Below the pieces are notes generated by a model. It made no database searches and was not told the origin of the DNA. It saw only the letters and a program-made list of their open reading frames with translations. The position numbers and the translations under genes were made by a program. Below, one piece after another: positions 8,201 to 47,019 of a stretch of 64,000 bases of DNA; the stretch's first letter is position 1, and every line of letters begins with the position of its first letter. Origin of the DNA: an uncultured beta proteobacterium (GTDB lineage: Bacteria > Pseudomonadota > Gammaproteobacteria > Burkholderiales > SG8-41); NCBI GenBank assembly GCA_903889565.1, contig CAISYC010000059.1:1-64000 (forward strand). Reading direction: 5' to 3'.

Positions 8201-8483
8201 CGCCGAAACGCGCGTCGGCCGCGGCCTGCGCATCGACATGCCGCGCAAAATCGCCGGCCGGGCCGCGTGTCGAGGTGAGTGCGATATCGATCACCGCGTC
8301 GCGCAGCACGGCGACGTAGGCGTTGCCGCGCAGTTCGTCGCGCGCAAAATCGATGGCGATATATTTTTCGTTGATCAGAATGCCGCTGATGAAAATCACC
8401 GCGGTGAGGTCGAGCAGGTAGATCAGCAGCAGCTTCTTGCCGACCGAAAGCCTGGCAAGCAGGCGCAGAATGGATTCGCGCAT
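5292..8483 (-). CDS. Membrane HAMP-PAS-GGDEF-EAL protein (cyclic-di-GMP turnover)
   Basis: A 1063-residue sensor protein. It has an N-terminal transmembrane helix (about 16-38), a long periplasmic helical region, a second helix near residues 297-322, a HAMP segment with ALPLRHL and DEIGRL, PAS-like regions, a diguanylate cyclase domain with intact GGDEF (704-708) and a C-terminal phosphodiesterase domain. The EAL signature reads EGL (Glu833 retained), and DDFGTG, NLSPLQL and AEGVET are present. The catalytic acids appear intact, so both activities are possible. It probably makes or degrades c-di-GMP at the inner membrane. The periplasmic ligand is unknown. Confidence 0.93.
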
Positions 8484-8633
8484 TTCAGTGATCGCAATGG
8501 TTCGGGTTGTCGCCGCGCCGGCGGAAGTGATCTGTATCCAGTAACGTCGGCGTATGCGTCAACTTTAGCACCAGTCACAAAGATGCAGCGCGGGCCCGAA
8601 TCCGGTGCGGTCGCGCATTCATTTGGTGCCCGC

Positions 8634-8683
8634 CCGAAAAAACATCGGGGCATCCCGAATTCCGGATGCCCCGACAATTTTTG
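8634..8683 (-). terminator. Rho-independent terminator of the 8723-10123 gene
   Basis: An 11-bp perfect stem (8645-8655 with 8664-8674) with an 8-nt loop, flanked by an A tract at 8637-8642 that reads as a U tract on the minus strand, right after the MmgE/PrpD gene. A weaker T run (8678-8682) could also serve the plus strand. Confidence 0.8.
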
Positions 8684-8722
8684 CGTCGATTCCGGCGAAC
8701 TCCGCCGGAAAATCGCGCCGGC

Positions 8723-10123
8723 TTACTGCTTTTGCATCAGCTTCGCGAGTTCGCCTGCATCCTTGAGCGATTCGAGATTGAGCATCGCGTCGCGCAGTTT
8801 CTGCATCTGGGCTTTCGGCAGCGCCTTGACCGCGAGCTTCTCGAATTTTTCGCAGATGTCGGCTTCGGAGGCGAAGTTGTTTTCGTTGCCGCGGCCGGCT
8901 TCGACCGTGCGCTCCATTGTCTTGCCGTTGTTGAGGTGGACTTCGACGCGCACCATGTGGCGGAATTTCGAGCCTCTGGCGGTGATCGCGTCGTCGTGAT
9001 GCACTTCGACCTTCTCGGCCTGCTTCATGCGTTCCGGATCGGCGACCTTGTCTTCGGTGAACTGATCGACGAAGCAGTCGCCGTCGAGCAGCCAGGTCGC
9101 CACGCAGTACGGCAGATTGAGTTGCGCGGAGGTCAGTCCCTGCGGCACGTACTTCCAGCCGACGTGATCCATCGTCACCTGCGAGCCATGGACGACGATT
9201 TTTTTGACGTCGTTGGCGCCGAAGGGGCGCTCCTGCTGCATCAGGCGGATGGCGTCGAGCGTGGTGTGGTTGCTGCCGACGCAGGAGTAGAACTTCAATG
9301 CCACGCCCATGGTCTGCCAGACTTTGCCGAAGTCTTTCGTCAGTTCTTCGAGCTTGAAGCGATCGTTGGAGCGGCTGAAGGTGGTGCAGAAGCCGCCGTA
9401 TTCGCTCTCCAACACGTTCAGAATTCCCGTAAAGCCGCCTTCGGCGAGCAGCGCGCCGTATAGGCCGGACTGCGAGGCGCGGCCGGCGTGCATGCGTTTG
9501 ACCATGGCGCCGTACTGCGCGGCCATCAGGCCCGCGGCCTGCGTGCCGGCGATGCCGAGCGCGTGCACGGTTTTATCGACATCGAGTTTCATGCCGCGCG
9601 CGGCGCCCGAAGCAGCGGAGAACACGCCGAGGGTGGCGCCGGAGTGCCAGCCCTGCGCGATGTGCTCGGGGCCCATGCAGATGCCGATGCGCGGACCGAT
9701 TTCGTAACCGGCGACGGCGGAAGCGAGAAACTCCTTGCCGCTCATGCCCGGACGCATTTCCGCGATCGAGATCAGCGCCGGCAGCACTACCGCGCCGACA
9801 TGCAGCACGCCCTGACGGTGCACGTCATCGAGTTCGAAGCCCTGCACCTGGGTGCCGTTGATCAGCGCCGCGTGTGGCGCCGAGATTTTCTGATTGGTGC
9901 CCCAGATCGTGCAGCTGCGGGTGGTATCCACCGCGCCGAGCGATTTCTGCATGATGCGAGTCCACTCGAGGTCGGCGCCGTAAATCGCGCAGCCGAGCGA
10001 ATCGAGCATGCACAGCTTGATGCGCGTCAACACCTCGGGCGGGATGTCTTCGTAGCGCAGTTTCGAGACAAATTCGGCGATGCCGCGGGTGTAGCGGTTG
10101 TCAGAGGAGGTTTCGTGTGCCAT
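8723..10123 (-). CDS. MmgE/PrpD family protein
   Basis: A 466-residue protein of MmgE/PrpD type: the N-terminal IKLCMLDSLGCAIYG, then NGTQVQGFELDDVH and HVGAVVLPAL, match the conserved helical domain. Length is normal. It is the last gene of the minus-strand block from the FAD enzyme at 15.3 kb, but a 162-nt repeat-containing gap separates it from the preceding TctC gene, so it may have its own promoter. A strong terminator follows. It probably acts on a small carboxylate; the substrate is unknown. It is divergent in sequence from the PrpD at 11311-12747, so the two are unlikely to be redundant. Confidence 0.87.
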   Translation of the reverse strand: MAHETSSDNRYTRGIAEFVSKLRYEDIPPEVLTRIKLCMLDSLGCAIYGADLEWTRIMQKSLGAVDTTRSCTIWGTNQKISAPHAALINGTQVQGFELDDVHRQGVLHVGAVVLPALISIAEMRPGMSGKEFLASAVAGYEIGPRIGICMGPEHIAQGWHSGATLGVFSAASGAARGMKLDVDKTVHALGIAGTQAAGLMAAQYGAMVKRMHAGRASQSGLYGALLAEGGFTGILNVLESEYGGFCTTFSRSNDRFKLEELTKDFGKVWQTMGVALKFYSCVGSNHTTLDAIRLMQQERPFGANDVKKIVVHGSQVTMDHVGWKYVPQGLTSAQLNLPYCVATWLLDGDCFVDQFTEDKVADPERMKQAEKVEVHHDDAITARGSKFRHMVRVEVHLNNGKTMERTVEAGRGNENNFASEADICEKFEKLAVKALPKAQMQKLRDAMLNLESLKDAGELAKLMQKQ

Positions 10124-27448: not shown

Positions 27449-28846
27449 TCAGCCGTGCGCAGCAAGCGCCGGCCGCCCGCTATTTTTCGGCAGCGTTGTC
27501 AGCGCGGAGAGTGCGCGCACGTCGGCAAGTGTTTCGATCGTCTGGATCGCGGCATAAAGCTTTTCTACAGTATCCGCCGGCAGCGCCATGGTCGCGCAGT
27601 TGACGAATTTTTCTTTCAGCAACGCGGGCGGCAGCGCGTTTTTCGAAGTGCGGCCGAAGGGCTGGTCGACTTTCTGTTTGAGCACCGTGCCGTTCTTCAG
27701 CGTGATGTTGACCTCGGCTGCGAAGTGATTGTCGGCCGGGAACTGCTCAGTCGTGTACGGCGCGACATGGATGCGCGGCAGGATCGCACGCACGGCCGGA
27801 TCCATATAGGTTTCCCCCTCGAAGTGCGGCAACGCGACTTTGCGATTGACGAGCGCGCGCGACAGCGCGTACTGCACGCTGAACTTGGCGTCGAAAGTGC
27901 TCAGCGGATCGGGCCGGTTGGTGTGCTCGAGGCGGCGCTTGTGCGTCCATGAATCGATGCGCGTCACGTCGTCGGGTTTGAGATCGTGCTCGCGCACCAG
28001 CATCAGCATGGCGTCGATCGCGGGATGGGTGCTGCCGCAGCAGGGATATTGCTTGATCGCGATGCCCGGCTCGATGATGTCCCAGGGCTTGCCCCAGGCC
28101 GGCAGGATTTTCGCGGCGTCGTAGTTGCCGGCGCCGTTGAAGACCTCGAAGTAACCCTGATTGTGCTCGAAGGCGACGGCGCTGGCGGTGAAACCGTCGC
28201 GCGCGAGCAGCGCGGCGAACAGACCGCTGCGGTTGCAATGGCCGACGTGCAGGGGTTTGGTCATGGTGCCGAAGTTCGATTTGACGCCGGCGGCGAGCGA
28301 GGCCGCGATCGACAGCACGGTGGCGGTCTGTTCGTCGGAGAGTTTGAGCAAATGCGCGCAAGCGGCGGCGGCGCCGAACACGCCGATGGTCGTCGTCGGA
28401 TGCCAGCCGCGCGTGTATTGATAAAAATTCACGCCCATCGAAATTTTGCACTCGGCTTCGAAACCCGCGACGTAGGCGGCGACGAAGTCGCGGCCGCCGG
28501 CGCCGATCTCGTCGGCGAGCGCAAACAGCGCCGGAATGATGGGTGCCGACGGATGGCCGCCCAGCGTGTTGTTGCAATCGTCGAAGTCGAGCGCGTGCGA
28601 GGCGGTGCCGTTGATCAGCGCGGCGTCGAGCATGCCGACTTTTTCAGCGCTGCCGAAGACATACGCCGGCCCGCTCGCCGAACCGAGCGACCGCGCGCAG
28701 ATGCGTGCCGACGGATCGGCGGCGCCGGCGATGGTGACGCCGACGGTGTCGAGGATGCCGACCTTCGCCCAGTGCAGGGTGTCCGCGGGCAATGAATCGA
28801 AGGTGGTGGCGTTGATCAGTCTGGCGAGTTCGAGGGCAAAGGGCAT
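27449..28846 (-). CDS. MmgE/PrpD family protein
   Basis: A 465-residue full-length MmgE/PrpD protein. Conserved blocks include KVGILDTVGVTIAGA, NGTASHALDFDDCNNTLGGHPSAPI (central active-site region), and QYPCCGSTHPAIDAM with two Cys. It probably isomerises, dehydrates or decarboxylates a small carboxylate. It is transcribed away from 28.9 kb together with the TctC gene at 28880-29851, which lies 33 nt upstream on the same strand. This reproduces the TctC-MmgE pairing seen at 1.1-3.4 kb, but in reverse order. Confidence 0.87.
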   Translation of the reverse strand: MPFALELARLINATTFDSLPADTLHWAKVGILDTVGVTIAGAADPSARICARSLGSASGPAYVFGSAEKVGMLDAALINGTASHALDFDDCNNTLGGHPSAPIIPALFALADEIGAGGRDFVAAYVAGFEAECKISMGVNFYQYTRGWHPTTTIGVFGAAAACAHLLKLSDEQTATVLSIAASLAAGVKSNFGTMTKPLHVGHCNRSGLFAALLARDGFTASAVAFEHNQGYFEVFNGAGNYDAAKILPAWGKPWDIIEPGIAIKQYPCCGSTHPAIDAMLMLVREHDLKPDDVTRIDSWTHKRRLEHTNRPDPLSTFDAKFSVQYALSRALVNRKVALPHFEGETYMDPAVRAILPRIHVAPYTTEQFPADNHFAAEVNITLKNGTVLKQKVDQPFGRTSKNALPPALLKEKFVNCATMALPADTVEKLYAAIQTIETLADVRALSALTTLPKNSGRPALAAHG

Positions 28847-28879: not shown

Positions 28880-29851
28880 TTATTCGGCGCGTATGTTGGC
28901 TTCACGCACAACTTTCGCCCACTTGGCAACTTCCGATTTGATGTGCGCGCCGAACTGCTCGGGCGTGCCGCCGACCGCTTCGGAACCGTCGGCGGCGAGT
29001 TTGCTCTGCACGTCGGGGCTGTGCAGGATGCGCACGATTTCCGCGTTAAGCTTGTCGATGATGGGGCGCGGCGTTTTCGCCGGCGCCAGCACGCCGTACC
29101 AGCCGGCGACTTCGTAACCGGCCACCCCGGCTTCCTGCATGGTCGGCAGTTCAGGCGCGCCGGCCGAACGTTTTTTTGTCGTCACCGCCAGCGCGCGCAC
29201 GCGGCCGGCCTTGCGTTGCGCGTCGCTCTGCAGCAGTGTCGAGAACAGCATCTGGATCTGGCCGCCGACGACGTCATTGAGCGCCGGAAAACCGCCTTTG
29301 TACGGCACATGCACGAGTTTGATGTCGGCGAGCGAACAAAACAGCGCGCCCGACAGATGGCTCAATCCGCCGATGCCCGACGAGCCGTAGCTCAATCCGT
29401 CCGGTTTGGCTTTGGCGAGCGCGACCAGTTCCCACACCGATTTCGCCGCCACCGACGGATGCACGACCAGCGCGTAAGGCTGCGAGGTTGCCTGCGTGAT
29501 CGGTGCCAGATCGCGCGTCAGATCGTACGGCAGTTTGTAGAGCGACGCGTTGACCGAATGGCTCGATGAAATCATGGTCAGTGTGTAACCGTCGGGTGGC
29601 GACTTGGTTGCGATATCGACGGCGATGGTGCCGTTCGCGCCCGCGCGATTGTCCGCCACCACTGTCTGACCCCAGGCCTCGGTGAGTTTCTGCGCGATCG
29701 CGCGCGCGGTGAGATCGGTGCCGCCACCGGGGGCGAAGGGTACGATCAGACGGATCGGTTTGGCGGGGTAGTCGGTGGGGGAGGGTTGGGCTGCGTGTGC
29801 CGTTGTGACTGCGAGCAGCGCGGCCGACAACGCAAGAAGTTTGGATCGCAT
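28880..29851 (-). CDS. Bug/TctC substrate-binding protein
   Basis: A 323-residue binding protein: signal peptide to about residue 20 (THA), YPAKPIRLIVPFAPGGGTDLTAR, DNRAGANG, PDGYT and LVVHPS. It has all the canonical Bug residues with no extension. It is the first gene of a two-gene unit with the MmgE/PrpD gene 33 nt downstream. The nested inverted repeat at 29923-30373 lies about 70 nt upstream of its start and probably isolates it from the selenoprotein gene transcribed towards it. Confidence 0.9.
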   Translation of the reverse strand: MRSKLLALSAALLAVTTAHAAQPSPTDYPAKPIRLIVPFAPGGGTDLTARAIAQKLTEAWGQTVVADNRAGANGTIAVDIATKSPPDGYTLTMISSSHSVNASLYKLPYDLTRDLAPITQATSQPYALVVHPSVAAKSVWELVALAKAKPDGLSYGSSGIGGLSHLSGALFCSLADIKLVHVPYKGGFPALNDVVGGQIQMLFSTLLQSDAQRKAGRVRALAVTTKKRSAGAPELPTMQEAGVAGYEVAGWYGVLAPAKTPRPIIDKLNAEIVRILHSPDVQSKLAADGSEAVGGTPEQFGAHIKSEVAKWAKVVREANIRAE

Positions 29852-30406: not shown

Positions 30407-32140
30407 CTACTTTTTACTTGCGGAAACCAACTGCGCCCAGTTCTTCGGCAATTCGACCTTGCGACTCGTCGGCGGCCCCTGCACATGATTACTCATATAA
30501 GCCCGCGACTGATTGCGGCCGGGATCGCCGGCGACAAGGATTTCGACCATCTCCGGTTTGATCAGCACGTTGACGAGGCGCTGCGGGTCTTTTGACTCCG
30601 TATACGACGGCGGCAGGATGCCCTGCTCGACGAGGCTTTCGAAATTGAAGGTCGGCGTGCTGGTCATCTGCGCATAGTGCGTGGCTTTGGCAGCGGTGAC
30701 TTTCATGTGGTCGTACATGTACTGCCGCACCTGATCCTTGCTCCACTCCTTGGCGATCACGCCGGCGATGCTGGGGCCGGCAATGATGAGCGGACTCCAA
30801 AGGCCGGTCTTGAAGCCGGTGTGCGCCCAGTAGGTGAAGCTGCCGCCGATGATGTCGGTCCACTGCTGCACGTGGGTTTTCGCATCGTCGCCGCCGCTAT
30901 ACATCGGCGAGGTGATCGCCACCACGCTGTGCACGGTGACGATGTTCTCGCCTTTTTTGAATCCGCGGTCCTCGGCATAAGTGGGCCAGCCGACGGCGGC
31001 GGCGCTGTCTTCGTCCTCGGCCATCGCGACCAGAAACGTTTGCCCGATGCTGCCCTTGTCGCCGGCGCCCGGCGGAATGCGGAAGCCGCAGATGTTACGC
31101 AGATACATGCGCACGAAGCGCCCGATGCTGGTGTTGGCCTGGCGGCCGACGCGCATCACGCCCTGACCGTAATTGAAGTCGAGTTCCTTGACGATGGGGC
31201 CGTTGACGATGACCACCGGTTCCCAGCCCGGCGTCGAGCCGGAGTCTTCAACGCGGTACTTCGGATCGCACAGCGCATCGACGATTGCAATCAGGACCGG
31301 CATGTATTCCGGACGGCAACCCGCCATCACGCCGTTGACGGCGATGCTGAGAATTGACGCTTCGCGGCCCTCCTGCGGAATGACGCGCAGCACTTCATCG
31401 GCTTTGCGCTCCGTGAAGGCGAGGAAGGCATCGACGCGTTCACGCGTCGGCGGTGTCACCGGCAGACCGTCGGTCCACAGATTCCTGTAAAAGTATTCCT
31501 GCACATCGTCATAGCTGCCGCTGAAGACAACCGCGCCCGCTTGCGGTTCGACCGATGTATCGCCTTCGACCGGCGCATCACCGGTGATGCCCTTTAACAG
31601 TCCGGGCGCGAGCGATTCTTCAACCTTGCGCATGAGTTCGGCTTCGCTGTCGACCATCGGTGCGCCCGGATAGACGCCGATGGCGAGCGGCACGCCGATG
31701 CCTTTGAGGATGACCTCGGCCTGCTTCAGAAAGCCGGAACCGATGATGGACGCAGTCGGCACGCCCATCTTTTCGACGATCGCTGCGGCCCGCAACACGG
31801 CGGGCGTGCAACTCCCTCAGGCGCCGATGCCGACGATGGCGGCGTCGGCTTTGAAGTGGCGGATCTTGTCGGGAATGGTGGCGGTGACTTCACGTTCGCG
31901 CGCGCCGTGGAAGTTGCCGATCTCGGTGTACGGCACGAACTTGACGCCGGGGAAACGCTTTTTGATGTACTCGCGCACCAGCGGGTAGATTGTTTCACCG
32001 CGGAAAATCACGTCCCACAATTCGACGATGGTCTTGCCGTTGAGATCGGGCACGCGCGGCGCGGCGGCAGTCTTCTTGACAGCCTTGCGCGACAGCGGCC
32101 ACAGCACGTCGTATTGCGGTTCGTTTTTGGCGGTCATCAT
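30407..32140 (-). CDS. UGSC-family selenoprotein (UGA at 31817-31819 = Sec108)
   Basis: A 577-residue protein if the in-frame UGA is read as selenocysteine. Upstream of it are 107 coherent residues ending AIVGIGA. Immediately after come GSCTPAVLRAA and 462 further residues in the same frame, giving the redox motif U108-G-S-C111. A paralogue at 45280-47019 aligns across both halves, including MAGCRPEYMP (Cys275 here). A SECIS-like hairpin follows the UGA, and tRNA-Sec, selA and selB lie upstream on the same strand. A family is named for this motif; its reaction is unknown, and Sec-x-x-Cys suggests thiol/selenol redox chemistry. No signal peptide, so cytosolic. It is the last gene after three TctC genes. 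Confidence 0.92.
31784..31810 (-). promoter_or_regulatory. SECIS-like hairpin of the 30407-32140 selenoprotein
   Basis: On the minus strand, a 6-bp GC stem (31805-31800 with 31793-31788) carries a 6-nt loop CGTGTT (31799-31794) containing GU. An outer 3-bp TGC/GCA stem closes it across an AC/C internal loop. The apical loop starts 17 nt after the UGA, within the spacing known for bacterial SECIS elements bound by SelB. Confidence 0.8.
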
Positions 32141-32170: not shown

Positions 32171-33139
32171 TTACTGCGCTTTGATGCCGGCAGCTTGTAC
32201 CACGCGCGCGTACTTCCCCGTCTCGCTGTTGAGGAATGCGGTGAATTGATCGGGCGTGCTGGCCACTACTGTTAAACCGTCCGCGGTCAAACGTTCGCGC
32301 AGCTCGGACTGCTGCAATACGGCGTTGATCTCGCTGTGCAGACGCAGCACGATCTCGCGCGGCGTCGCTGCTGGCACCAGCAGACCGAACCATGTAGCCA
32401 TGTCGAAACCGGCGAGCCCGCTTTCGGCGACGGTCGGGATTTCTTTCGCAATCGCCACGCGCGTGAGGCCGGTGACGCCGAGTGCGCGCAGCCGCCCCTG
32501 CTTTATGAAGGGCAGGCTCTGCAACACATTCATGAAATACACCGGCACTTCGCCGCTCATGACATCGATAGTGGCGGCCCCCGACCCTTTGTACGGCACG
32601 TGGGTCATGCGGATGCCGGCAGACAACGCGAACCATTCGCCGGCCAGATGCGGCAGCGAGCCGACGCCCGACGAGCCGTAATTGAGTTCGGCCGGCCGCG
32701 CCTTTGCCAGTGTGATCAGTTCGCGCACGTTTTTCACCGGCAACGACGGGTGCGTCACCAGCGTCAGCGGACCCGACACCAATTGAGTAACGGCGGCGAG
32801 ATCGCGCGCCTGATCGTACGGCAGATTCGGATAGAGGCTGGGATTCACCGCATAACCCGAAGGCACGATCAACAGCGTGTGGCCGTCGGCCGGCGCCGAT
32901 TTGGCAACGTAAGCAGTGCCGATGGTGCCGTTGGCGCCGCCGCGGTTTTCCAGCACCACCGGCAGTTTGAAGCGTTCATTCAATTTCTGCGCAATCGGTC
33001 GCGCCAGAATGTCGGTGCCGCCGCCGGGCGGAAAGGGCACGATGATTTTGACCGGGCCGCTCGGGAAGGTTTGTGCGCCACCGTGGTTGCAGGCGAGTGC
33101 GACGACCGCGACCAGCAATGTGTTTACGGCAAATTTCAT
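32171..33139 (-). CDS. Bug/TctC substrate-binding protein (third of a tandem triplet)
   Basis: A 322-residue binding protein: signal peptide to about residue 22 (HGGA), FPSGPVKIIVPFPPGGGTDILAR, ENRGGANG and DGHTLLIVPSGYAVNP. Its ATG at 33139 overlaps the stop of the preceding TctC gene (ATGA). The open frame upstream is a shadow. It lies 30 nt before the UGSC selenoprotein gene, so the two are probably cotranscribed. DGHT replaces the usual DGYT, as in the middle gene of the triplet, supporting recent common origin. Confidence 0.9.
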   Translation of the reverse strand: MKFAVNTLLVAVVALACNHGGAQTFPSGPVKIIVPFPPGGGTDILARPIAQKLNERFKLPVVLENRGGANGTIGTAYVAKSAPADGHTLLIVPSGYAVNPSLYPNLPYDQARDLAAVTQLVSGPLTLVTHPSLPVKNVRELITLAKARPAELNYGSSGVGSLPHLAGEWFALSAGIRMTHVPYKGSGAATIDVMSGEVPVYFMNVLQSLPFIKQGRLRALGVTGLTRVAIAKEIPTVAESGLAGFDMATWFGLLVPAATPREIVLRLHSEINAVLQQSELRERLTADGLTVVASTPDQFTAFLNSETGKYARVVQAAGIKAQ

Positions 33140-34101
33140 TGCGCCTGCGCGATGCCCGCAGCCTGAATGATTCGCGCATATTTCGCGTTTTCGCTTTTCA
33201 GGAACGCGCTGAATTGTTCGGGCGTGCTGGCGACCACCGCCATGCCGTCGGCCGCCAGACGTTCGCGGATATCGGGCTGATTCAAAATTTGCGCGACCTC
33301 GACCTGCAGTCGGGCGACGATCTCGCGCGGCGTGCCGCCGGTCACCATCAGTGCGGTCCATGTCGTCATGTCATAGCCGGGCAGGCCCGATTCGGCGATC
33401 GCCGGAATCTCCGGCGCGAACGGCGAGCGTTGCGGCGTGGTGACGCCAAGCGCGCGCAGGCGGCCACTTTTGATGTAGGGCAGGCTTTGCAGTGCGTTCA
33501 TGAAGTAGAGCGAAATCTGGCCGCTCATCAGATCGATCACACCGGCGCCGCCGCCCTTGTACGGCACGTGGGTCATTTTGACTCCGGCGGATAACGCAAA
33601 CCACTCGGCGGCGAGTTGATTGAGCGAACCGGTGCCGGAAGAACCGAAACTGATTTCATGCGGATGGGCTTTGGCAAGCGCAATCAGATCACGCACGGTT
33701 TTCGCCGGCAGCGACGGGTGCACTGTGAGCGTCAGCGGCCCGGCGACGAGTTGTGATGCCGGCGCGAGATCGCGGCTCTGATCGTAGGGCAGATTTTTGT
33801 ACATGACCGGATTGGCGGCGAAGCCGGCGGGCACGATCAGCAGCGTGTGCCCGTCGGGCGGCGCTTTCGCCGCCATTGCCGCGCCGATGGTGCCGTTGGC
33901 GCCGGGCCGATTGTCCGCTACCGCCGGAACCTTGAATTTTTCATTCAGCTTCTGCGCGATGACGCGACCGAGAATATCCGTCGAGCCGCCGGGCGCGAAC
34001 GGAACGATGATGCGCAGCGGCCCGTTGGGATAATTTTGCGCCAGCGCCGCTGAAGCGCACAGGCAAAGCGCAAGCGTGAAGCCTGTGCGCGTCGGCGCCA
34101 T
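33136..34101 (-). CDS. Bug/TctC substrate-binding protein (second of a tandem triplet)
   Basis: A 321-residue binding protein: signal peptide ending near ALA (about residue 21), YPNGPLRIIVPFAPGGSTDILGR, DNRPGANG, DGHTLLIVPAGFAANP. It shares NYPNGP, LLIVPAG and LTVHPSLP with its tandem neighbours, far closer to them than to other TctC proteins here. It begins 4 nt after the preceding TctC stop and overlaps the next start by 4 nt. It may bind a ligand similar to its neighbours' or be a specialised duplicate. Confidence 0.9.
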   Translation of the reverse strand: MAPTRTGFTLALCLCASAALAQNYPNGPLRIIVPFAPGGSTDILGRVIAQKLNEKFKVPAVADNRPGANGTIGAAMAAKAPPDGHTLLIVPAGFAANPVMYKNLPYDQSRDLAPASQLVAGPLTLTVHPSLPAKTVRDLIALAKAHPHEISFGSSGTGSLNQLAAEWFALSAGVKMTHVPYKGGGAGVIDLMSGQISLYFMNALQSLPYIKSGRLRALGVTTPQRSPFAPEIPAIAESGLPGYDMTTWTALMVTGGTPREIVARLQVEVAQILNQPDIRERLAADGMAVVASTPEQFSAFLKSENAKYARIIQAAGIAQAQ

Positions 34102-34105
34102 GCGG

Positions 34106-35086
34106 CTACAAACCCTTGATGCCGGCGGTCTGGATGATGCGGTTGTATTTAGCCGTTTCGCGGGCGAGGAATTCGACGAACTGCTCGGGCGTGCTGCCGA
34201 CCACCATCATGCCTTCGCCGGCAAGGCGTTCTTTCAGTTCCGGCAGATTGAGCACGCGCGTCACCTCCTGCTGCAGCCGGTTGATGGTGTCGCGCGGCGT
34301 GCCGCCCTGCACCAGCAGGCCGTACCAGTTGGTCATGTCGAAATCCTTGAGACCGGATTCGGCGATCGACGGCAGGTCGGGCGCGATCGGCGAGCGCTTC
34401 GGGCTCGTTACGCCGAGCGGGCGCAGCTTGCCGGACTTGATCAGCGACAGGCTCTGCAGAATGTTCATGAAATAGATCGGCACCTGGCCGCTTAACACGT
34501 CGATCACCGCCGCACCCGAACCCTTGAACGGAATGTGCACGATCTTGATGCCTGCGGAAGAATTGAATAGTTCGGCGCACAGATGCGGCAGCGAGCCGTT
34601 GCCGGCCGAGCCGACATTCAGCGCACCGGGTTGCGCTTTGGCGAGCGCGATCAGGTCCCTGACGTTTTTGACCGGCAGCGACGGATGAACGACGAGCACC
34701 AGCGGACCGGAGGCGAGATGCGACACGGGTGCCAGTTCGCGCGCCTGATCGTAAGACAGGCTTTTGTACAGCGCCGGATTCGCCGCATAGCCGGCCGGCA
34801 CGATCAGCAGGGTCTGGCCGTCGGGCACGCTTTTCGCGACGTAGGCGGCGCCGACGGTGCCGTTGGCGCCGGCGCGGTTTTCGACCACCACCGGCACGTT
34901 GAAGCGTTCATTCAGTTTTTGCGCGATGGTGCGCGACAGGATGTCGGTGCCGCCGCCGGGCGGGTAGGGCGAGACGATGCGCATGGGCCCGTTCGGATAG
35001 TTCTGGGCGAAACCGGGTGCCGCCGCAAAGATCAGTGTGGTGAATACCGACGCGACGGCGCGTCTCTGTCGATCCGACGAAGCCAT
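34106..35086 (-). CDS. Bug/TctC substrate-binding protein (first of a tandem triplet)
   Basis: A 326-residue binding protein with a longer charged n-region (ASSDRQRR), then a hydrophobic core and cleavage near GFA. It has YPNGPMRIVSPYPPGGGTDILSR, ENRAGANG and DGQTLLIVPAGYAANP. Its start lies 38 nt downstream of the tRNA-Sec gene on the same strand, so the triplet and the selenoprotein may be expressed by readthrough from the Sec machinery genes. Confidence 0.9.
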   Translation of the reverse strand: MASSDRQRRAVASVFTTLIFAAAPGFAQNYPNGPMRIVSPYPPGGGTDILSRTIAQKLNERFNVPVVVENRAGANGTVGAAYVAKSVPDGQTLLIVPAGYAANPALYKSLSYDQARELAPVSHLASGPLVLVVHPSLPVKNVRDLIALAKAQPGALNVGSAGNGSLPHLCAELFNSSAGIKIVHIPFKGSGAAVIDVLSGQVPIYFMNILQSLSLIKSGKLRPLGVTSPKRSPIAPDLPSIAESGLKDFDMTNWYGLLVQGGTPRDTINRLQQEVTRVLNLPELKERLAGEGMMVVGSTPEQFVEFLARETAKYNRIIQTAGIKGL

Positions 35087-35123: not shown

Positions 35124-35218
35124 TGGCGGAAGAGAGTGGGAGTCGAACCCACGCAGGACTGTAAACAGCCCCTACCAGGTTTGAAGTCTGGCCGCCCCAC
35201 CGGGAGCGATTCCCTTCC
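35124..35218 (-). tRNA. selC: tRNA-Sec (anticodon UCA)
   Basis: The minus-strand 95 nt begin GGAAGGGA and end TCTCTTCC-GCCA, giving an 8-bp acceptor stem (one G-U) and an encoded CCA. The anticodon TCA lies at 35182-35184 inside ACTTCAAAC, preceded by GGTGGGGCGG. A long variable arm and the T-loop segment GGTTCGACTCC follow. It matches the E. coli selC layout closely. It lies between the TrxR-like gene and the TctC triplet, in the same orientation as selA and selB. It delivers Sec at UGA codons with SelB. Confidence 0.97.
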
Positions 35219-35270: not shown

Positions 35271-36176
35271 CTACTTGCCGAGCAATTTTGCTGCCGCGGC
35301 GCCGGCTTTTTCACCGTCGGCCAGCGCATCGGCCAGCATGCCGCCGCAGCCGGCGCGCACGACGCCGGCGGCAAATACGCCCGCCATGCTGGTTTGCAGC
35401 GCGGCATCGGTGACCAGACGGCCGTTGGCTTCGCGTTTGATCTCGGCCGGCACGAATTCGATATTCGGCTCGAGGCCGACGTAGGCAAAGAAGCCGACTG
35501 CGGCGATGTCGGTAGTCTTGCCGTCGGCGCTTTTGACGCGCACCTTGTTCAGCATCTCCGCGCCTTCGATCGCTTCCACCGTGCTGTTCCAAATTGGCTG
35601 GATGACTGGCTGCGCGGCGACCGCATCGATCAGCGCCTGACGCGCGCTGAATTTCGCGTCGCGATGCACCAGATGCACTTTTTTGCAGAAGTGCGCCAGC
35701 ACCAGCGCTTCCTGCAGCGCCGAGTCGCCGCCGCCGACCACCACAACTTCCTCGTCCTTGTACATCGGGCCGTCGCAATCGGCGCACTGCGAGACGCCGC
35801 GATGCTCGAACTCGGCTTCGCCGGGCACGCCGAGGCGTTTCAAACGCGCGCCCGAAGCGATGATCAGCGCGCGCGCGCTGTGCGTGCCGCCGTCGGTGGT
35901 GATGGTGATTTTGTCGCCGTTCTTCGCGATCGTGCTGACGGTTTCGCTCAGGCTTTCGACGCCAAGGTCGGACATTTCCATCATAAGGTTCGAGGCGTAA
36001 TCGGTGCCGGAGCCTTCGATCTCGCCGTCGAGCTCGTTGATGTTGACGACAAGGCCGCCAAACAGCAGTTGCTCGACGCTGGCGGCGCGCAGGCCTTTTT
36101 GCGCGACATGTTTGGCGGCGGCAAGGCCGGCAACGCCGGCGCCGATGACGATCACATCAAAATTCGAATCGGACAT
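35271..36176 (-). CDS. Thioredoxin-reductase-like FAD/NAD(P) oxidoreductase
   Basis: A 301-residue flavoprotein of TrxB type: FAD motif VIGAGVAGLAAA (10-21), an active-site disulfide C131-A-D-C134 followed by DG, NADPH motif VVGGGDSALQEA (147-158) and a C-terminal FAD motif AGVFAAG. The catalytic Cys pair is normal, with no Sec. The start is close behind selB (9 nt), so it is cotranscribed with the Sec machinery. It is therefore a candidate electron donor to the local U-x-x-C selenoproteins (inference). Classical TrxB has CATC; CADC also occurs in ferredoxin/NADP reductase-like relatives. Confidence 0.88.
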   Translation of the reverse strand: MSDSNFDVIVIGAGVAGLAAAKHVAQKGLRAASVEQLLFGGLVVNINELDGEIEGSGTDYASNLMMEMSDLGVESLSETVSTIAKNGDKITITTDGGTHSARALIIASGARLKRLGVPGEAEFEHRGVSQCADCDGPMYKDEEVVVVGGGDSALQEALVLAHFCKKVHLVHRDAKFSARQALIDAVAAQPVIQPIWNSTVEAIEGAEMLNKVRVKSADGKTTDIAAVGFFAYVGLEPNIEFVPAEIKREANGRLVTDAALQTSMAGVFAAGVVRAGCGGMLADALADGEKAGAAAAKLLGK

Positions 36177-36185
36177 GACTTTTCC

Positions 36186-38207
36186 TTAATAACGTTTGAT
36201 CGGACGGTGATTGGGACGGCGCTGCACCGACGGTGCGGCGGGTTTGGCCGGTGCGGCTGCGGCGGCCTGTTTCGGCGGTGCGGGCGGGGCGACGGCGTCA
36301 CCGAGTATGGGCGCGAACTCGCGCCGCATCTTGCGCATGTCGCCGATGCGTTGCGTGATGCCGAGGCGATCGAGGCATTCGAGGATCTCGATCGCCAGCC
36401 CGCGGCCGACGCCGGTGCGGTCACGGTATTGCGCGGCGGTGAACTGGTTGCCGGGCGAATTCTGCGCGACATCGACGGCGCAGGCGGCGAGCTTCGCAAG
36501 TGTCGTGCGCGGATAAAAGCGCTCCGGCGTGACGCGGATGACTTCGTTGGTTTTCGCCTTTCGATACAGGAAGTCCTTCAGCATGACTTCCTTCAGCTTC
36601 GTCAGGGGTGCTAAGTCTTTCAGCGGCGGCACGTTGAATCCGGCCGACTCCATTACCGGTTTGACCGCCTCCCACATTTTCTGATCGGCGGGGTTGTCGG
36701 TGGCGACGTGCTGCGGCAGCCGGGCGTGGTTGCCGGCGACCTCGAGTTTCCTGTCGTCGGCGAGAACGCGCAGCAGCGCGGTGAAAGTCTCCGCTGCGAG
36801 CGCCTGTGCGTGCGCTTTGCGCAAGGCATCGATTTCAATGCCAACGGCCTGCGGCGCATCGCGGTGAAACTTCACCAGCGCCTCGACCACGGCGGTTTTG
36901 ATTTTTTCCACCAATACCTTCGGCAGCGCGACGCGCTGTTCGCGGCCGACGATCGCGGTGTCGAGGGTGGCAATCAACGCATCGACGCGGTCGGGCTTGA
37001 GATTAAAAGTGCGTTCGAATTGCGCGAGATCGACGCCGGCCGGCGAGCAGGCGAGCAGCGCTTTCAATGCCGCGGCGGGGTCGTCGTGTTCGAGCGCGGC
37101 GAGCTGGGCCGCGCGCGCGGCGGTGTTGCGGCGCGATGCCGGCGCGAACGGATCGACCACGCTGCCGCCGCCAACGGTGCGGGTGGCGGATTGATCGCGC
37201 ACGATGAAGCGGTCGCCGTGCAGCACCGCCAGCGGCGCATCGGCGATGAGTTGAACTATCGCCGATTCGCCCGGCGCGATGACGGCGCCGCGTCGGATCG
37301 ACACGCGCGCGGTGACGTCCGCAGTGCCCAGATGCAGATGCACCGGCGTCCAGTGCTTGAGCGGCTGCGCTTCGTTGGTCAGAACCTGCAGCCGCACATC
37401 GATGCGTTGCGTCGGCGCATGCACGGCCGGCGCGACCAGCCAGTCGCCGCGGCTGACCTGCGCGAGTTCGACGCCGGATAAATTAAGCGCGCAGCGTTCG
37501 CCGGCCGCTGCCTGTTGCGCGGCGCCCCCCTGTTTCTGCATGCCGCGCACGCGCACGTCGATGCCGCCGGGCGAGAGCGTCAGATGATCGCCGACCGCCA
37601 CTGCGCCGGTGACGACGGTGCCGGTGACGACGGTGCCGCTGCCGGCCTTGGTGAATACGCGGTCCACGGTGTAACGGAAATGGCGGCCGGCGTGTTCTCG
37701 CTGCTGATGCGCTTTGGCGGCGGCGGCGAGTTCGTTGCGCAGCGCTTCGATGCCCTCGCCGCTGATGGCGGAGGCGGGCATCACCGGAATGGCGGCGAGC
37801 TTCGTGTCCGCGAGCAGACTTTTCACACCGGCAATGACCTCGGCCACCCGCTCGGCCGGCACGCGGTCGCATTTCGTGATGACGGCGACGCCGCGCGAGA
37901 CGTTGAGCAGATTGACTATGTTGAGGTGCTCGACGGTCTGCGGCATTACGCCGTCGTCGGCGGCGACGATCAGCATCACGTAATCGATGCCTGCCACACC
38001 GGCGAGCATGTTGCGGATGAAGCGCTCGTGACCCGGCACATCGACGAAGCCGATCAGCGCGTCCGGTGTCTTCCAGTAGGCGAAGCCGATGTCGATCGAA
38101 ATGCCGCGCGCTTTTTCTTCGGGCAGGCGGTCGGTGTCGACGCCGGTGAGCGCCTTGACCAGCGTGGTTTTGCCGTGGTCGATGTGGCCGGCGGTGGCGA
38201 CGATCAT
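36186..38207 (-). CDS. selB: Selenocysteine-specific elongation factor SelB
   Basis: A 673-residue GTPase. G1 GHIDHGKT (7-14), DVPGH (56-60) and TKCD (111-114) match SelB rather than EF-Tu. Long C-terminal winged-helix repeats (for example [17 protein letters not shown] and [21 protein letters not shown]) bind the SECIS RNA. The tail ends in an Ala/Pro/Lys-rich low-complexity stretch. The ATG at 38207 was chosen because the GTPase fold begins at once; the upstream open frame overlaps the methyltransferase. It brings Sec-tRNA to UGA codons. Confidence 0.96.
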
Positions 38208-38286
38208 GGTCGTGGCCGCAATACGCGACGCAATGTGGTGGCGGCCGACGAAGCGCAGGAGCTGTCGCGCGATTCGGGATCGGGCA

Positions 38287-38916
38287 TCATGCGATTTTCC
38301 TGAATGTTTCGGTATGGCCGGCCCGGCACTGGTGCTGCCAATGCGCGGTGTCGGCGAGTATTCCGCGATACAGCTGCAGAACGCCCGGGTAGGCATCGAT
38401 GGCGTCGTCGAGCACGACGTAGCCGCCGGCGACGACATGGCGCGTCCATAGGTCGAAATCCTGTTTCACCGCCGGATAGCGGTGATCGCCGTCGATGAAG
38501 AGCAGGCGTATCGGGCCCTTCGTCCACTGTCGCGCGGCCGCGGCAGATTCTGCTACGACTGGCTCGATGTGGTCAAAGAGGCCGAGCGTTTCCATGTTTT
38601 CGCTGAATCGATGGTAGGTCGTGCCTTCGGTGCGGATGATGTCCTGGTCTTTCAGCATCGGGCCGCCGTCAAACACATCGACCGCATGCACCGTTTCGCG
38701 TCCCGCCGCCTTGCTGCCGGCGGCCAGCCACGCCGTCGAGAGCCCCATCCAGCTGCCGATTTCGACAATGGCGCCGGCACCCTCGCCGTCGCGCGCGAGA
38801 CGGTAGAGCAGATAGCCGTCCGCCGGGCCGAGCCAGCCTTCGATTGATGCGAAGCGTTGCGCGAGTTGCACGAATTCGACGGTATTGGCGACGTCGCTGA
38901 ACAGGTTGCCGACCAT
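38287..38916 (-). CDS. Class I SAM-dependent methyltransferase-like protein
   Basis: A 209-residue protein with a Rossmann-type SAM-binding motif ([15 protein letters not shown]), an acidic strand-2 end (VHAVDVFDG) and [11 protein letters not shown] followed by VLDDAID, as in the Methyltransf_24/TylF-like family. It sits between selA (6 nt upstream) and selB (79 nt downstream) on the same strand, which is unusual and may indicate a role in the Sec pathway or selenium metabolite methylation. That link is positional only. It could also be an unrelated passenger gene. Confidence 0.8.
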
Positions 38917-38922
38917 GATCGT

Positions 38923-40341
38923 TCAGTCCCGCGTGCCCTGCACTGCGTGCAGTTGCGCAAGTTGTGCGACAAAACGGGCCTCGTCATCGAGACATCTGAG
39001 ATCGATGATGAAGGCGCCGTCCTTGACGCGGCCGATCACCGGCCACGGCAGTTTGCGGAAGGCATTCGACAAACGCTTGGCGGCGCTGTTGCGGTTTTTG
39101 CCGCGCGGGGTGATCGCGATGCCGGCGCTGGGCAAGGCATCGACCGGCAGCGCGCCGCTGCCAATCTGGCTGGCGCAGTCGATCACCGCGGCGTCGGCGC
39201 TGTCGCCGACGGCTGCAGCGAGCGCGGGCAACAGGCGCGCGGCCTGCGCGGCAATGTCTTTTTGCGGGCGCGTCAACAAACGCAGCGTGGGCACCTCTTT
39301 GACCAGCTTGTCCGGATCGGCATAGAGGCGCAATGTTGCTTCGAGTGCCGCCATGCGCATTTTGTCGATGCGCAGCGCGCGTTTCATCGGGTTCTTGCGG
39401 ATTTTCGCGATCAGGTCTTTGCGGCCGACGATAAGGCCGCATTGCGGGCCGCCGAGCAGTTTGTCGCCGCTGAAGGTGACGAGATCGGCGCCGTTGCCGA
39501 TGGCATCGCGGGGCGTGGGTTCGTGCGGCAGGCCCCAGCGTTCGAGTTCGACCAAGGTGCCGCTGCCGAGATCGACCCAGAACGGCAGTTGATGTTCGTG
39601 TGCAATCGTCGCCACTTCGGATTCGGGAACCGCGCTGGTGAAGCCCTGGATTGCATAGTTGCTGGTGTGTACCTTCATCAGCGCCGCGGTACGATCGCCG
39701 ATGGCTTCGACGAAGTCTTTCGCATGCGTGCGGTTGGTGGTGCCGATTTCGCGCAGCTTGCAGCCCGAACGCGTCATGATGTCGGGGATGCGGAAAGCGC
39801 CGCCGATTTCGACGAGTTCGCCGCGCGAGACGATGACTTCCTTTTTCTGCGCGAAGGTATTGAGCACCAGATAAACGGCGGCGGCATTATTGTTGACCAC
39901 CACCGCGGCCTCGGCGCCGGTCAAGCGGCGCAACCAGTCCTCGACATGGCTGTCGCGTTCGCCGCGCGCGCCGCCGTCGATGTCGAATTCGAGATTGACC
40001 GCGCAGGTCATCGCCTGCATCGCCGCTTCGGCGGCGATTTTGCCGATTAGCGCGCGGCCGAGATTGGTGTGCAGCACGGTGCCAGTGAGATTAAATACCG
40101 GACGTATCGACGGGCGTGTGGCGGCGGCCAGATATTCGGCGCAGCGTGTGATCAACGCGGTTTCATCAACGGCCGCGATGTTTTGCGCCATCGCCGCGCG
40201 CTGGGCGTCGATGATTGAACGGATGGTTTCGACCACCAGCGGGCGGCCGTATTGTTCGATGAGTGCAGCAACCTGTGGCTGTTGCAACAGGCGGTCTACC
40301 GAGGGGAGCGCGCGACGCGCGGCAGCAGGCGGATTCACCAT
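38923..40341 (-). CDS. selA: L-seryl-tRNA(Sec) selenium transferase SelA
   Basis: A 472-residue PLP enzyme that converts Ser-tRNA(Sec) to Sec-tRNA(Sec) using selenophosphate. Visible are the N-terminal LPSVDRLLQ, LTGTVLHTNLGRA, VNNNAAAVYL and the PLP-lysine segment TFSGDKLLGGPQCG with Lys294. Length is typical (E. coli 463). The ATG at 40341 was chosen from homology; the frame is open further upstream. It is the first gene of the Sec cluster. Selenophosphate synthetase (selD) was not found within the window, so it must be encoded elsewhere. Confidence 0.96.
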   Translation of the reverse strand: MVNPPAAARRALPSVDRLLQQPQVAALIEQYGRPLVVETIRSIIDAQRAAMAQNIAAVDETALITRCAEYLAAATRPSIRPVFNLTGTVLHTNLGRALIGKIAAEAAMQAMTCAVNLEFDIDGGARGERDSHVEDWLRRLTGAEAAVVVNNNAAAVYLVLNTFAQKKEVIVSRGELVEIGGAFRIPDIMTRSGCKLREIGTTNRTHAKDFVEAIGDRTAALMKVHTSNYAIQGFTSAVPESEVATIAHEHQLPFWVDLGSGTLVELERWGLPHEPTPRDAIGNGADLVTFSGDKLLGGPQCGLIVGRKDLIAKIRKNPMKRALRIDKMRMAALEATLRLYADPDKLVKEVPTLRLLTRPQKDIAAQAARLLPALAAAVGDSADAAVIDCASQIGSGALPVDALPSAGIAITPRGKNRNSAAKRLSNAFRKLPWPVIGRVKDGAFIIDLRCLDDEARFVAQLAQLHAVQGTRD

Positions 40342-40538
40342 GGTCGCTGGCGATCCGCGCGGATCAGTTTGATGTGCTGCAGCAAAGTCATGCGGGCGGG
40401 GCGCACACGGCGCCGGCGGTGACGTTCGGGGGAAAGAGTTTAGCGCAATCGGCGGCGCGGCGCTGGCAGCGGATTGCGCCGCTGCGGCATCTTGGCTACT
40501 CTCGGCCATTCATCAAACCAACCACTCCGGGTAATCCC

Positions 40539-45279: not shown

Positions 45280-47019
45280 ATGAGCGGCAACAGCAGCGAA
45301 CCCAACTATGAAGTCGTGTGGCCGCTCGGCGCCTCGGCTTATAAAACGCGCGCGCCGAATGCACGCATCGACGATCTGTCGGGCAAGGTGGTCGGCGAGC
45401 TGTGGGACTTTTTGTTTCGCGGCGAGGATATTTTTCCGATCGTGCGCGAGGAACTGACGAAGAAATTTCCCGGCATCCGCTTTGTCACCTACGACGTGTT
45501 CGGTAACGTGCATGGCCCGCAGCAACGCGAGCTGGTCGCCGACGTGCCGAAGCTGCTCAAGCAACACGGTTGTAACGCGGTCATATCCGCGATCGGCGCC
45601 TGAGGCGCTTGCACGCCCGCCGTGTTGCGGGCGAGTGCGGCAGTCGAAAACGCCGGTTATCCGGCGGTCTCCATTATCTCGAGCGGCTTTCTCAAGCAGG
45701 CGGCGGTGGTCGCCAAGGGGCTCGGCCTGCCCGACATGCCGATCGCGGCCTATCCCGGCGTGCCGATGACTGACAGCGACGAAGAACTGCGCCGCAAAGT
45801 GGTTGAAGAACTGGTGCCGCAGATCATTGCCGGCCTGTCGAAGCCGGTCGGCAAAATGTCCGATGACGCAGCGGATGCGGAACCGGCGATGCGCGACATC
45901 GTGTTCCGCGGCACGCTCGACGAAGTCAACGAGCACTTCCAGAAAAACTTCTGGGCCGATGGCATGCCGGTGATGCCGCCGACACTCGATCGCATCGAGC
46001 GCTTTCTCAAATTCACCGACCGCAAACCCGACGAAGTGATCGGGCCGTGCCCGCCGGCGAACCGACTCGCCACGGTGTGGAACGTCGCGGTCAACGGCGT
46101 GATGGCCGGCTGCCGGCCCGAATACATGCCGGTGCTGCTGGCGGTGATCGAAGCGATCGTCGACCCGGTTTATAAAATTGAAGACGCCGGTTCGACGCCG
46201 GGCTGGGAATCGCTGATCGTGTTGAACGGCCCGATCGCGAAGCAACTCGGCTTCAATTCGGGGCAGGGCGTGATGCGCACCGGCATCCAGGCGAATACCA
46301 GCGTGGGTCGTTTCCTGCGCCTCTTTCTGCGCAACATCGCCGGTTTTCATCATGCACCCGAGGGCGCCGACAAGGGCAGCATCGGCCAGAGTTTTCTGGT
46401 CGCCGCAGCCGAGAATGAAGAGGCAGTGGCGGAGATCGGCTGGCAGCCGTACAGCGTCGACCGCGGTTTCAAGGCGGGCGATAACATCGTCACGGTGCAA
46501 AGCGTGGTTGCGATCAGCGCGCCGACTTATACCGGCAGCGAAAAGGCCGAAGAACATGCCGCGCTGATTGCCGACGTGATCGGCCAGCGCGCCTGCGGCT
46601 ACTGGTCGGCGATCGGCATGGTTTACAGCCACTGGCATCCGTTGATCATGCTCGGGCCCAGCATCGCCAAAGTGTTCGCGCAGGACGGCTGGAGCAAGGA
46701 CGATCTGCGGCGCTATCTTTACCAGAATGTGACGATGAAGGCCTCGCTCGCCGAGCGTTATGCCTATTATTGCGGGCAGACCGGTTTTCGCGTCAACAAT
46801 TACGTCAAGCAGGGTCTGCTGCCGCCGGCCTATGGCGAGTCTGACGATCCGGAGCGCTTGATTCCGGTGTTTCAGCGGCCCGAGTGGATCGGCATCATGG
46901 TAGCCGGCGACTGGGGCCGCAATCAATCGAAGGGTTACGTTAGCAATCACATTCAGGGCCCGCCGGTGAGCAAGGCGGTACGCTTGCCGAAAAGCTGGGA
47001 TACTTTGCTCAAGCGCTAG
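45280..47019 (+). CDS. UGSC-family selenoprotein (UGA at 45601-45603 = Sec108), U-G-A-C variant
   Basis: A 579-residue protein when the single in-frame UGA is read as Sec. The upstream 107 residues end AVISAIGA. The frame continues with GACTPAVLRAS and 461 more residues, giving U108-G-A-C111. Both halves align with the selenoprotein at 30407-32140, with Sec at the same residue number and shared blocks MAGCRPEYMP (Cys278 here), STPGWE, GQGVMR, QANTS and ADKGSIGQ or GDKGSIGQ. A strong Shine-Dalgarno AGGGAGAAA precedes ATG 45280. A SECIS-like hairpin follows the UGA. TctC genes lie on both sides. Cytosolic; reaction unknown, probably Sec/Cys redox chemistry. Confidence 0.92.
45611..45638 (+). 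promoter_or_regulatory. SECIS-like hairpin of the 45280-47019 selenoprotein
   Basis: GCAC plus GCCCGC (45611-45620) pairs with GCGGGC (45627-45632) and GTGC (45635-45638) across a 2-nt GA bulge, giving 10 bp. The loop CGTGTT (45621-45626) contains GU and begins 17 nt after the UGA. The loop and upper stem are identical to those of the other UGSC gene. Confidence 0.85.

Follow-up and report, generated by a model that had tools for sequence, protein, structure and literature searches.

The DNA analysed here, a window of 64,000 nucleotides from an uncultured beta proteobacterium, carries on its minus strand a gene that standard gene calling divides into two open reading frames of the same frame (31817-32140 and 30407-31798). 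Read through, they form a single frame whose sole TGA is codon 108 (31819-31817), in the context ...AAIVGIGAUGSCTPAVLRAA.... The sequence-only reading had claimed that a single in-frame UGA interrupts a frame of 577 residues and that reading it as selenocysteine (Sec) gives U-G-S-C, and both claims were borne out, this TGA being the only one in the frame and the joined translation around residue 108 giving the motif. Its placement of tRNA-Sec, selA and selB upstream on the same strand was likewise correct, as the tRNA has the anticodon tca and Pfam identified SelB and SelA (Table 1). SelD is encoded in the same genome away from the window by a gene that itself bears a TGA, and the set of SelA, SelB, tRNA-Sec and SelD is therefore complete. 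A second copy of the selenoprotein gene, on the plus strand of the window, had been missed by the sequence-only reading.

Table 1. Features of the selenoprotein locus and its surroundings in the 64,000-nucleotide window
Feature	Position	Strand	Basis or remark
MmgE/PrpD family protein, downstream	27449..28846	-	Pfam
TctC-type solute-binding protein, downstream	28880..29851	-	Pfam
UGSC-CT fusion selenoprotein gene	30407..32140	-	577 residues with UGA read as Sec; frame reading, Pfam, relatives, codon comparison
CT partner domain, about 375 residues	30431..31549	-	No Pfam or NCBIfam match
UGSC domain (PF24696), predicted Rossmann/flavodoxin-like	31586..32110	-	Pfam, AlphaFold2 model, structure alignment
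SECIS-like hairpin	31788..31805	-	6-bp stem, 6-nt loop; lies in the coding frame, shortly past the UGA
In-frame UGA, Sec codon 108	31817..31819	-	Frame reading, codon comparison
TctC-type solute-binding protein, directly upstream of the selenoprotein	32171..33202	-	Pfam; start uncertain
TctC-type solute-binding protein	33136..34101	-	Pfam
TctC-type solute-binding protein	34106..35086	-	Pfam
tRNA-Sec	35124..35218	-	Anticodon tca
Thioredoxin-reductase-like flavoprotein, C-A-D-C motif	35271..36176	-	Pfam, locus and genome scans
SelB	36186..38438	-	Pfam
SelA	38923..40509	-	Pfam
Second UGSC-CT selenoprotein gene	45280..47019	+	52% identity to the first copy; flanked by a TctC gene on either side
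In-frame UGA of the second copy	45601..45603	+	Frame reading, codon comparison
SECIS-like hairpin of the second copy	45615..45632	+	Sequence; register as in the hairpin analysis of the first copy

The joined protein matched the Pfam family PF24696 ('UGSC family') with 81.4 bits over residues 11-185, well within the membership cut-off of 25 bits, while its halves alone reached 28.1 and 19.3 bits. To determine how the interrupting codon is maintained, we compared the gene codon by codon with 12 relatives, namely the second copy of the window (52% identity) and 11 copies from other genomes (69-91%). All 12 have TGA at codon 108 and no other stop, and dN/dS was 0.08-0.50 before the UGA and 0.09-0.49 after it, signifying purifying selection on both sides; on these grounds the arrangement exceeds what chance would give. 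Homologues ending at the UGA and additional stops or frameshifts, either of which the sequence-only reading would have accepted as refutation, were not seen among these copies. Among the relatives listed, every match across residue 108 contains TGA, three rows without a stop start at residue 197 or later, and a few rows have an extra stop. In 80 loci from named genome records the Sec site is TGA in 77, Cys in 2 and TAG in 1 (Blastococcus endophyticus), so that the earlier prediction of Sec or Cys at residue 108 held for these relatives with the exception of the TAG copy. The latter represents an already known swap of the Sec codon to UAG, CUA tRNA-Sec and UAG-coded UGSC proteins being described for Geodermatophilaceae, the family of Blastococcus, in the available part of PMC5330540. 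The domain search yielded 228 hits. Removal of duplicates, of windows truncated at the end of a locus and of the 12 hits lacking U left 182 unique UGA windows, and the UxxC motif was retained in 181 of these. We also searched six genomes for tRNA-Sec, which was present with anticodon tca in all four with UGA copies and was not recognised in either of the two with Cys copies (Chelativorans and Nocardioides sediminis), where the best matches examined were a tRNA-Ser that barely exceeded the Rfam cut-off and a tRNA-Gly. The gene thereby shows the expected pattern of an in-frame UGA at a site where relatives whose genomes lack Sec decoding have Cys.

A hairpin just after the UGA adds to this evidence. 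We examined 89 non-redundant UGA copies out of the 182 windows (85% identity filter) and found a stem of at least 6 bp at one of two fixed registers in 68, against 10.7 expected from synonymous codon resampling; the 6-bp stem was absent at both registers in the other 21. The registers are represented by 33 copies with the peptide CTPAVLR and 35 with CTSWSVH, and as they go with two different peptides, a single peptide sequence does not account for the hairpin. It is kept in the TAG copy (L093) and is reduced to 3 bp in both Cys copies. By folding energy, the stretch after the UGA was more stable than its synonymous versions (mean z -1.33), as compared to a near-neutral -0.32 in a control stretch 200 bases on. 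Rfam gave no SECIS match, and a relaxed threshold over 31700-31900 yielded only four matches at chance level; the presence of a SECIS hairpin just after the UGA is supported here by the 6-bp stem of this copy and its recurrence in 68 of the 89, and not by Rfam.

Taken as a true stop, the UGA would leave two short proteins or a decaying gene, as the two ORFs of standard gene calling suggest. This explanation is already contradicted by the purifying selection on both sides with no other stop in 12/12 copies, by the joined protein far outscoring both halves against PF24696, and by the hairpin together with the Cys and TAG swaps at the site, and we regard it as scarcely tenable. Reading of the UGA as some other amino acid, by suppression or an altered code, is just as hard to credit: the open frame alone would allow it, but each gene has a single TGA, always at the same conserved position, a tRNA-Sec with anticodon tca lies within the window, and Cys takes the position in two relatives whose genomes have no recognised tRNA-Sec. 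Decoding of UGA-108 as Sec is thus strongly supported, without protein-level proof of selenium, and the gene that seems broken by a stop almost certainly encodes one Sec-containing protein.

Proteins of the UGSC type have been catalogued since 2007-2008 as an abundant selenoprotein family without known function. The membership of the present protein in this family, asserted by the sequence-only reading, is established by the PF24696 match of the joined frame, and the U/C-G-x-C motif stands after a beta strand as in the family, U108-G-S-C being preceded by a strand (100-106) and followed by a helix (111-124) in the AlphaFold2 model. However, it reached only 43.6 bits against the NCBIfam equivalog model NF041046 (UGSC_fam; cut-off 125 bits), owing to which we consider it a divergent, fused branch, and to that extent the label of a known family needs qualification. 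The second copy of the window scored 54.1 bits, and the cut-off was passed by two stand-alone UGSC domains among the copies of the same genome that were scanned (128.1 and 145.7 bits). With the UGSC family (PF24696; NF041046; the 'UGSC-containing protein' of the 2007-2008 selenoproteome papers, as far as these were available) it shares the PF24696 match, U-G-x-C and Sec with Cys relatives, and it differs in falling below the NF041046 cut-off, in its fusion to a partner domain of about 375 residues (CT) and in its tens of copies. The fusion as such is not new: Zhang and Gladyshev 2008 (PMC2398784, Figure S1A) describe a fusion of UGSC to an uncharacterised domain, 'Unknown_1', in aquatic bacteria, and the available passages of that paper do not mention the paralog number, split operons or neighbours reported here.

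We modelled the full protein with AlphaFold2 (pLDDT 94.8, pTM 0.94). Solved structures gave no sequence match at E up to 1 and Foldseek no match to the full model at E up to 0.001. The UGSC domain of the model aligned with Rossmann/flavodoxin-like chains, the best of which was a designed protein (Z 11.9, rmsd 2.8 over 125 residues). A thioredoxin fold was absent from the 50 structural rows listed for it, which does not exclude one. In the parts accessible, the 2008 paper guessed a thioredoxin-like fold for UGSC (PMC2398784) and a 2026 review still lists it among uncharacterised proteins of Trx-like fold (PMC13188914, sections 7 and 10).

The CT domain occurs on the same strand with all 21 UGA copies of the genome, fused in frame in 12 and encoded by a separate ORF within 251 bp in 9, and is hence an obligate partner of UGSC in this genome (21/21). 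Its AlphaFold2 model was confident (pLDDT 93.8, pTM 0.93), and with CT alone Foldseek retrieved class I fumarate hydratases as its four matches at E up to 0.001 (best E 1.8e-4, TM 0.25), while cyclic amide hydrolases ranked lower. The best VIA-align 2 match was to chorismate-mutase-like chains (Z 5.8), fumarase reaching 4.3, and since the matches from both programs are weak we name no fold for CT. A relationship of CT to the pyruvoyl-type partner subunits PrdA and GrdE was considered and rejected (hhalign probability 0.45 and 2.06, respectively), and the probability against GrdB was 0.80. On Sporomusa and Vibrio plasmids (L221, L222), CT accompanies a degenerate UGSC domain without U/C-G-x-C, beside genes for aconitase X and DUF126; the chemistry is not uniform across relatives, as these copies do not have the motif. 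Haloarchaeal plasmids (L220, L224) carry a Cys-type UGSC and CT as separate adjoining genes.

These resemblances bear on the possibility of a lyase, hydrolase or racemase that uses Sec as nucleophile or base with no net reduction and to which CT contributes a fumarase-like or cyclic-amide-hydrolase-like site. The fumarate hydratases and cyclic amide hydrolases retrieved by Foldseek would suit such an enzyme, as would the dehydratase-type neighbours MmgE/PrpD and aconitase X. Yet the fold matches of CT are weak, and the kept UxxC and the reductase-like neighbour suggest redox turnover, which makes this explanation an unlikely one.

A reductive function is suggested by the relationship of the Sec domain to known selenoreductases. 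When a profile of 100 UGSC domains was aligned by hhalign to one of the Geosporobacter GrdB/PrdB proteins as a group, the probability was 97.4 (E 1.3e-11) with the Sec residues in register, against 0.84 for the reversed control, and the 29 stand-alone-type UGSC domains alone reached 96.8; the GrdB/PrdB profile was built from three proteins of one genome. NCBIfam models of PrdB and GrdB relatives matched 5/8 UGSC-bearing proteins scanned at E up to 0.01, with scores that fell well short of the cut-offs in every case and one row (sarcosine_GrdF on L038) aligning outside the Sec region. The protein at 30407-32140 itself had no NCBIfam GrdB/PrdB match at E up to 1, and the family cut-offs of TIGR04483, TIGR01917, TIGR01918 and PF07355 were not met. 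By computation on sequence profiles, the UGSC Sec domain thus appears as a distant homolog of the Sec domain of glycine and D-proline reductases. GrdB (glycine/sarcosine/betaine reductase) and PrdB (D-proline reductase) have a U-G-T-C motif, and the present system differs from both in that PF07355 does not match over the domain, a pyruvoyl partner of the PrdA/GrdE type is missing and GrdA is not in the genome, from which GrdB is absent too. In a betaproteobacterial genome of the same genus (G003), we observed GrdA with a TGA and three GRDB-family matches (L213-L216). FarB/FarE of Cloacibacillus, a GrdB/GrdE pair linked to fluoroacetate reduction in dehalorespiration, set a precedent for the divergence of GrdB-type selenoproteins towards other substrates next to a transporter; these are, however, of the true GrdB/GrdE family, and the evidence in the available part of that report consists of expression and genome comparison (PMC10838667).

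Reductases of the GrdB/PrdB type are fed by thioredoxin reductase/thioredoxin. Of 80 loci whose gene neighbourhoods we examined, 24 have a thioredoxin-reductase-like gene nearby, a candidate electron donor, 23 having the CxxC-D/E motif, and none was present in the stretch examined at the other 56. At the same E-value limit there are 2 such genes in the whole genome under study and 5 in Geosporobacter, where the two best matches are located 1.8 kb from grdA (near grdA/grdB) and 134 bases after the UGSC-CT gene. As 9 of the 24 loci also have a selB hit, part of this link is to the Sec machinery. The gene also directly follows the Cys-type UGSC/CT pair in Haloterrigena, and in Variovorax it precedes Cys-type UGSC/CT with a TctC gene in between. 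Small thioredoxins with the WCxxC motif were not found in the 80 loci; Trx is mentioned for GrdA in the accessible text of PMC13188914 (section 7).

Genes for transport and organic acid metabolism are the other recurring neighbours. Among the near-neighbour proteins scanned, TctC accounted for 22/66, mostly in Betaproteobacteria, and SBP_bac_5 for 13/63, in Chloroflexi and others. These tallies are rough, as the scans covered 129 of 144 chosen proteins from simple longest-ORF calls with similar proteins removed and loci from one genome are not independent; TctC genes may moreover be abundant in such genomes generally, and there is no background rate for the tally. In isolates such as Geosporobacter and Chelativorans the neighbours include 2HCT, CitMHS, MmgE/PrpD, mesaconyl-CoA hydratase, CoA transferase and HpcH/HpaI, along with AtuA and DUF4387 in Geosporobacter and ornithine cyclodeaminase in Chelativorans. 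Across the 80 loci, we counted AtuA/DUF4387 at 3, 2HCT at 2, HpcH at 1, MmgE/PrpD at 11-16 and CoA transferase at 12, and a dedicated carboxylate operon common to many loci was rejected, no single pathway being shared.

The genome (5.04 Mb in 74 contigs, listed as 99.7% complete with 3.9% contamination) has 22 matches to PF24696, of which 21 contain one TGA; all 21 were read and have U-G-x-C except one with U-G-T-S. The 22nd (L188/L052; contig 5, about 87.2-87.8 kb) is a UGSC-like paralog that lacks a TGA and has Met where the others have Sec. The copy number is higher still in G003 (5.7 Mb, 98% complete, 2% contamination), with 58 matches, 54 with TGA and 4 without; 3 of the 54 carry a further stop, and the motif is present in all 30 copies read (the best 30 of 54). 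The closest pair among these 30 is 73% identical, hence these copies are not strain duplicates. Of 100 relatives searched with the protein, 63 have it, comprising 60/60 of the family (including the genome studied here) and 3/40 elsewhere in the order, and no relative was found in viral contigs. Some record titles of metagenome-assembled genomes (L057, L065, L071, L074 and others, e.g. Bordetella parapertussis and Chitinophaga pinensis) look mis-assigned. On the IncP plasmid p2-T1 of Acidovorax sp. T1 (L223), a UGA-bearing UGSC-CT gene (7803-9500) lies near IS1071, and its annotation shows no more than a short hypothetical protein that stops at the UGA. As this copy exemplifies, standard gene calling tends to truncate such genes at the UGA. 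The roughly 21 copies in the genome, the obligate partner domain and the GrdB/PrdB homology lay outside the view of the sequence-only reading.

The multiplicity of copies also weighs on the proposal that UGSC proteins are thioredoxin-like redox proteins of a housekeeping type. The proposal dates from 2008 (PMC2398784, in its available part), and UxxC in 181/182 UGA copies as well as the thioredoxin-reductase-like gene near 24/80 loci would agree with it. But the closest structural matches of the confident UGSC model are Rossmann/flavodoxin-like chains (Z up to 11.9), profile homology points to GrdB/PrdB, and dozens of diverged copies with a large partner and solute-binding genes suit substrate-specific enzymes better, so we think it quite improbable.

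In view of the homology, the fixed partner, the reductase neighbour and the transport neighbours, we propose a Sec-dependent, two-component selenoreductase for imported organic acids that is fed by the thioredoxin-reductase-like protein, a reading to which we assign a probability of roughly 0.55. The Sec decoding signals, paralogy, partner linkage, GrdB/PrdB homology and neighbours beneath it were computed, whereas its reductive chemistry, electron path and substrates are inferred. In the proposed mechanism UGA-108 would be read as Sec by the adjacent SelA, SelB and tRNA-Sec with SelD from elsewhere in the genome, insertion being guided by the hairpin that starts 14 bases into the message as counted from the UGA. 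By analogy with GrdB/PrdB, Sec may act as the nucleophile that cleaves a substrate bond reductively, the Cys three residues after it would resolve the product as a selenenylsulfide, and the thioredoxin-reductase-like flavoprotein could restore it directly or via thioredoxin. CT might play the role of the substrate-activating PrdA/GrdE subunit while being unrelated to it by sequence. Multiplication of the genes beside solute-binding proteins may have produced variants specialised for particular imported organic acids. Because GrdA and GrdB are absent from the genome and small thioredoxin from the loci, a cycle like that of PrdB, with the reductase-like protein as donor, is likelier than the complete cycle of glycine reductase.

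The UGSC family, its fusion to 'Unknown_1' and the Sec/UAG swap were already known (for the fusion, PMC2398784). In the open-licence PMC literature we did not find the heavy paralogy, the partner rule, the GrdB/PrdB homology or the thioredoxin-reductase link in print. A 2016 table has the row 'UGSC-containing protein 26 33', taken here as organisms and genes, the column heads not being visible in the part available (PMC5029168). For whole bacterial selenoproteomes, the available sections give maxima of 57 and 63 (PMC13188914, section 10) and, in another survey, 46 (PMC12013277). The 54 UGA-bearing UGSC genes of one 5.7-Mb relative, from a single family, approach the former two values.

With somewhat less than even confidence, we further suggest that UGSC proteins provide the selenium subunit in a so far unrecognised and heavily multiplied branch of the GrdB/PrdB reductase superfamily which, with a new partner and a thioredoxin-reductase-like donor, forms a catabolic repertoire for imported organic acids. 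The GrdB/PrdB homology, obligate partner and candidate electron donor make the function of UGSC directly testable. If the suggestion is true, lineages usually considered aerobic would employ such a repertoire as well, and the selenoproteomes of some members of this betaproteobacterial family, consisting mostly of UGSC proteins, would rank with the largest on record.
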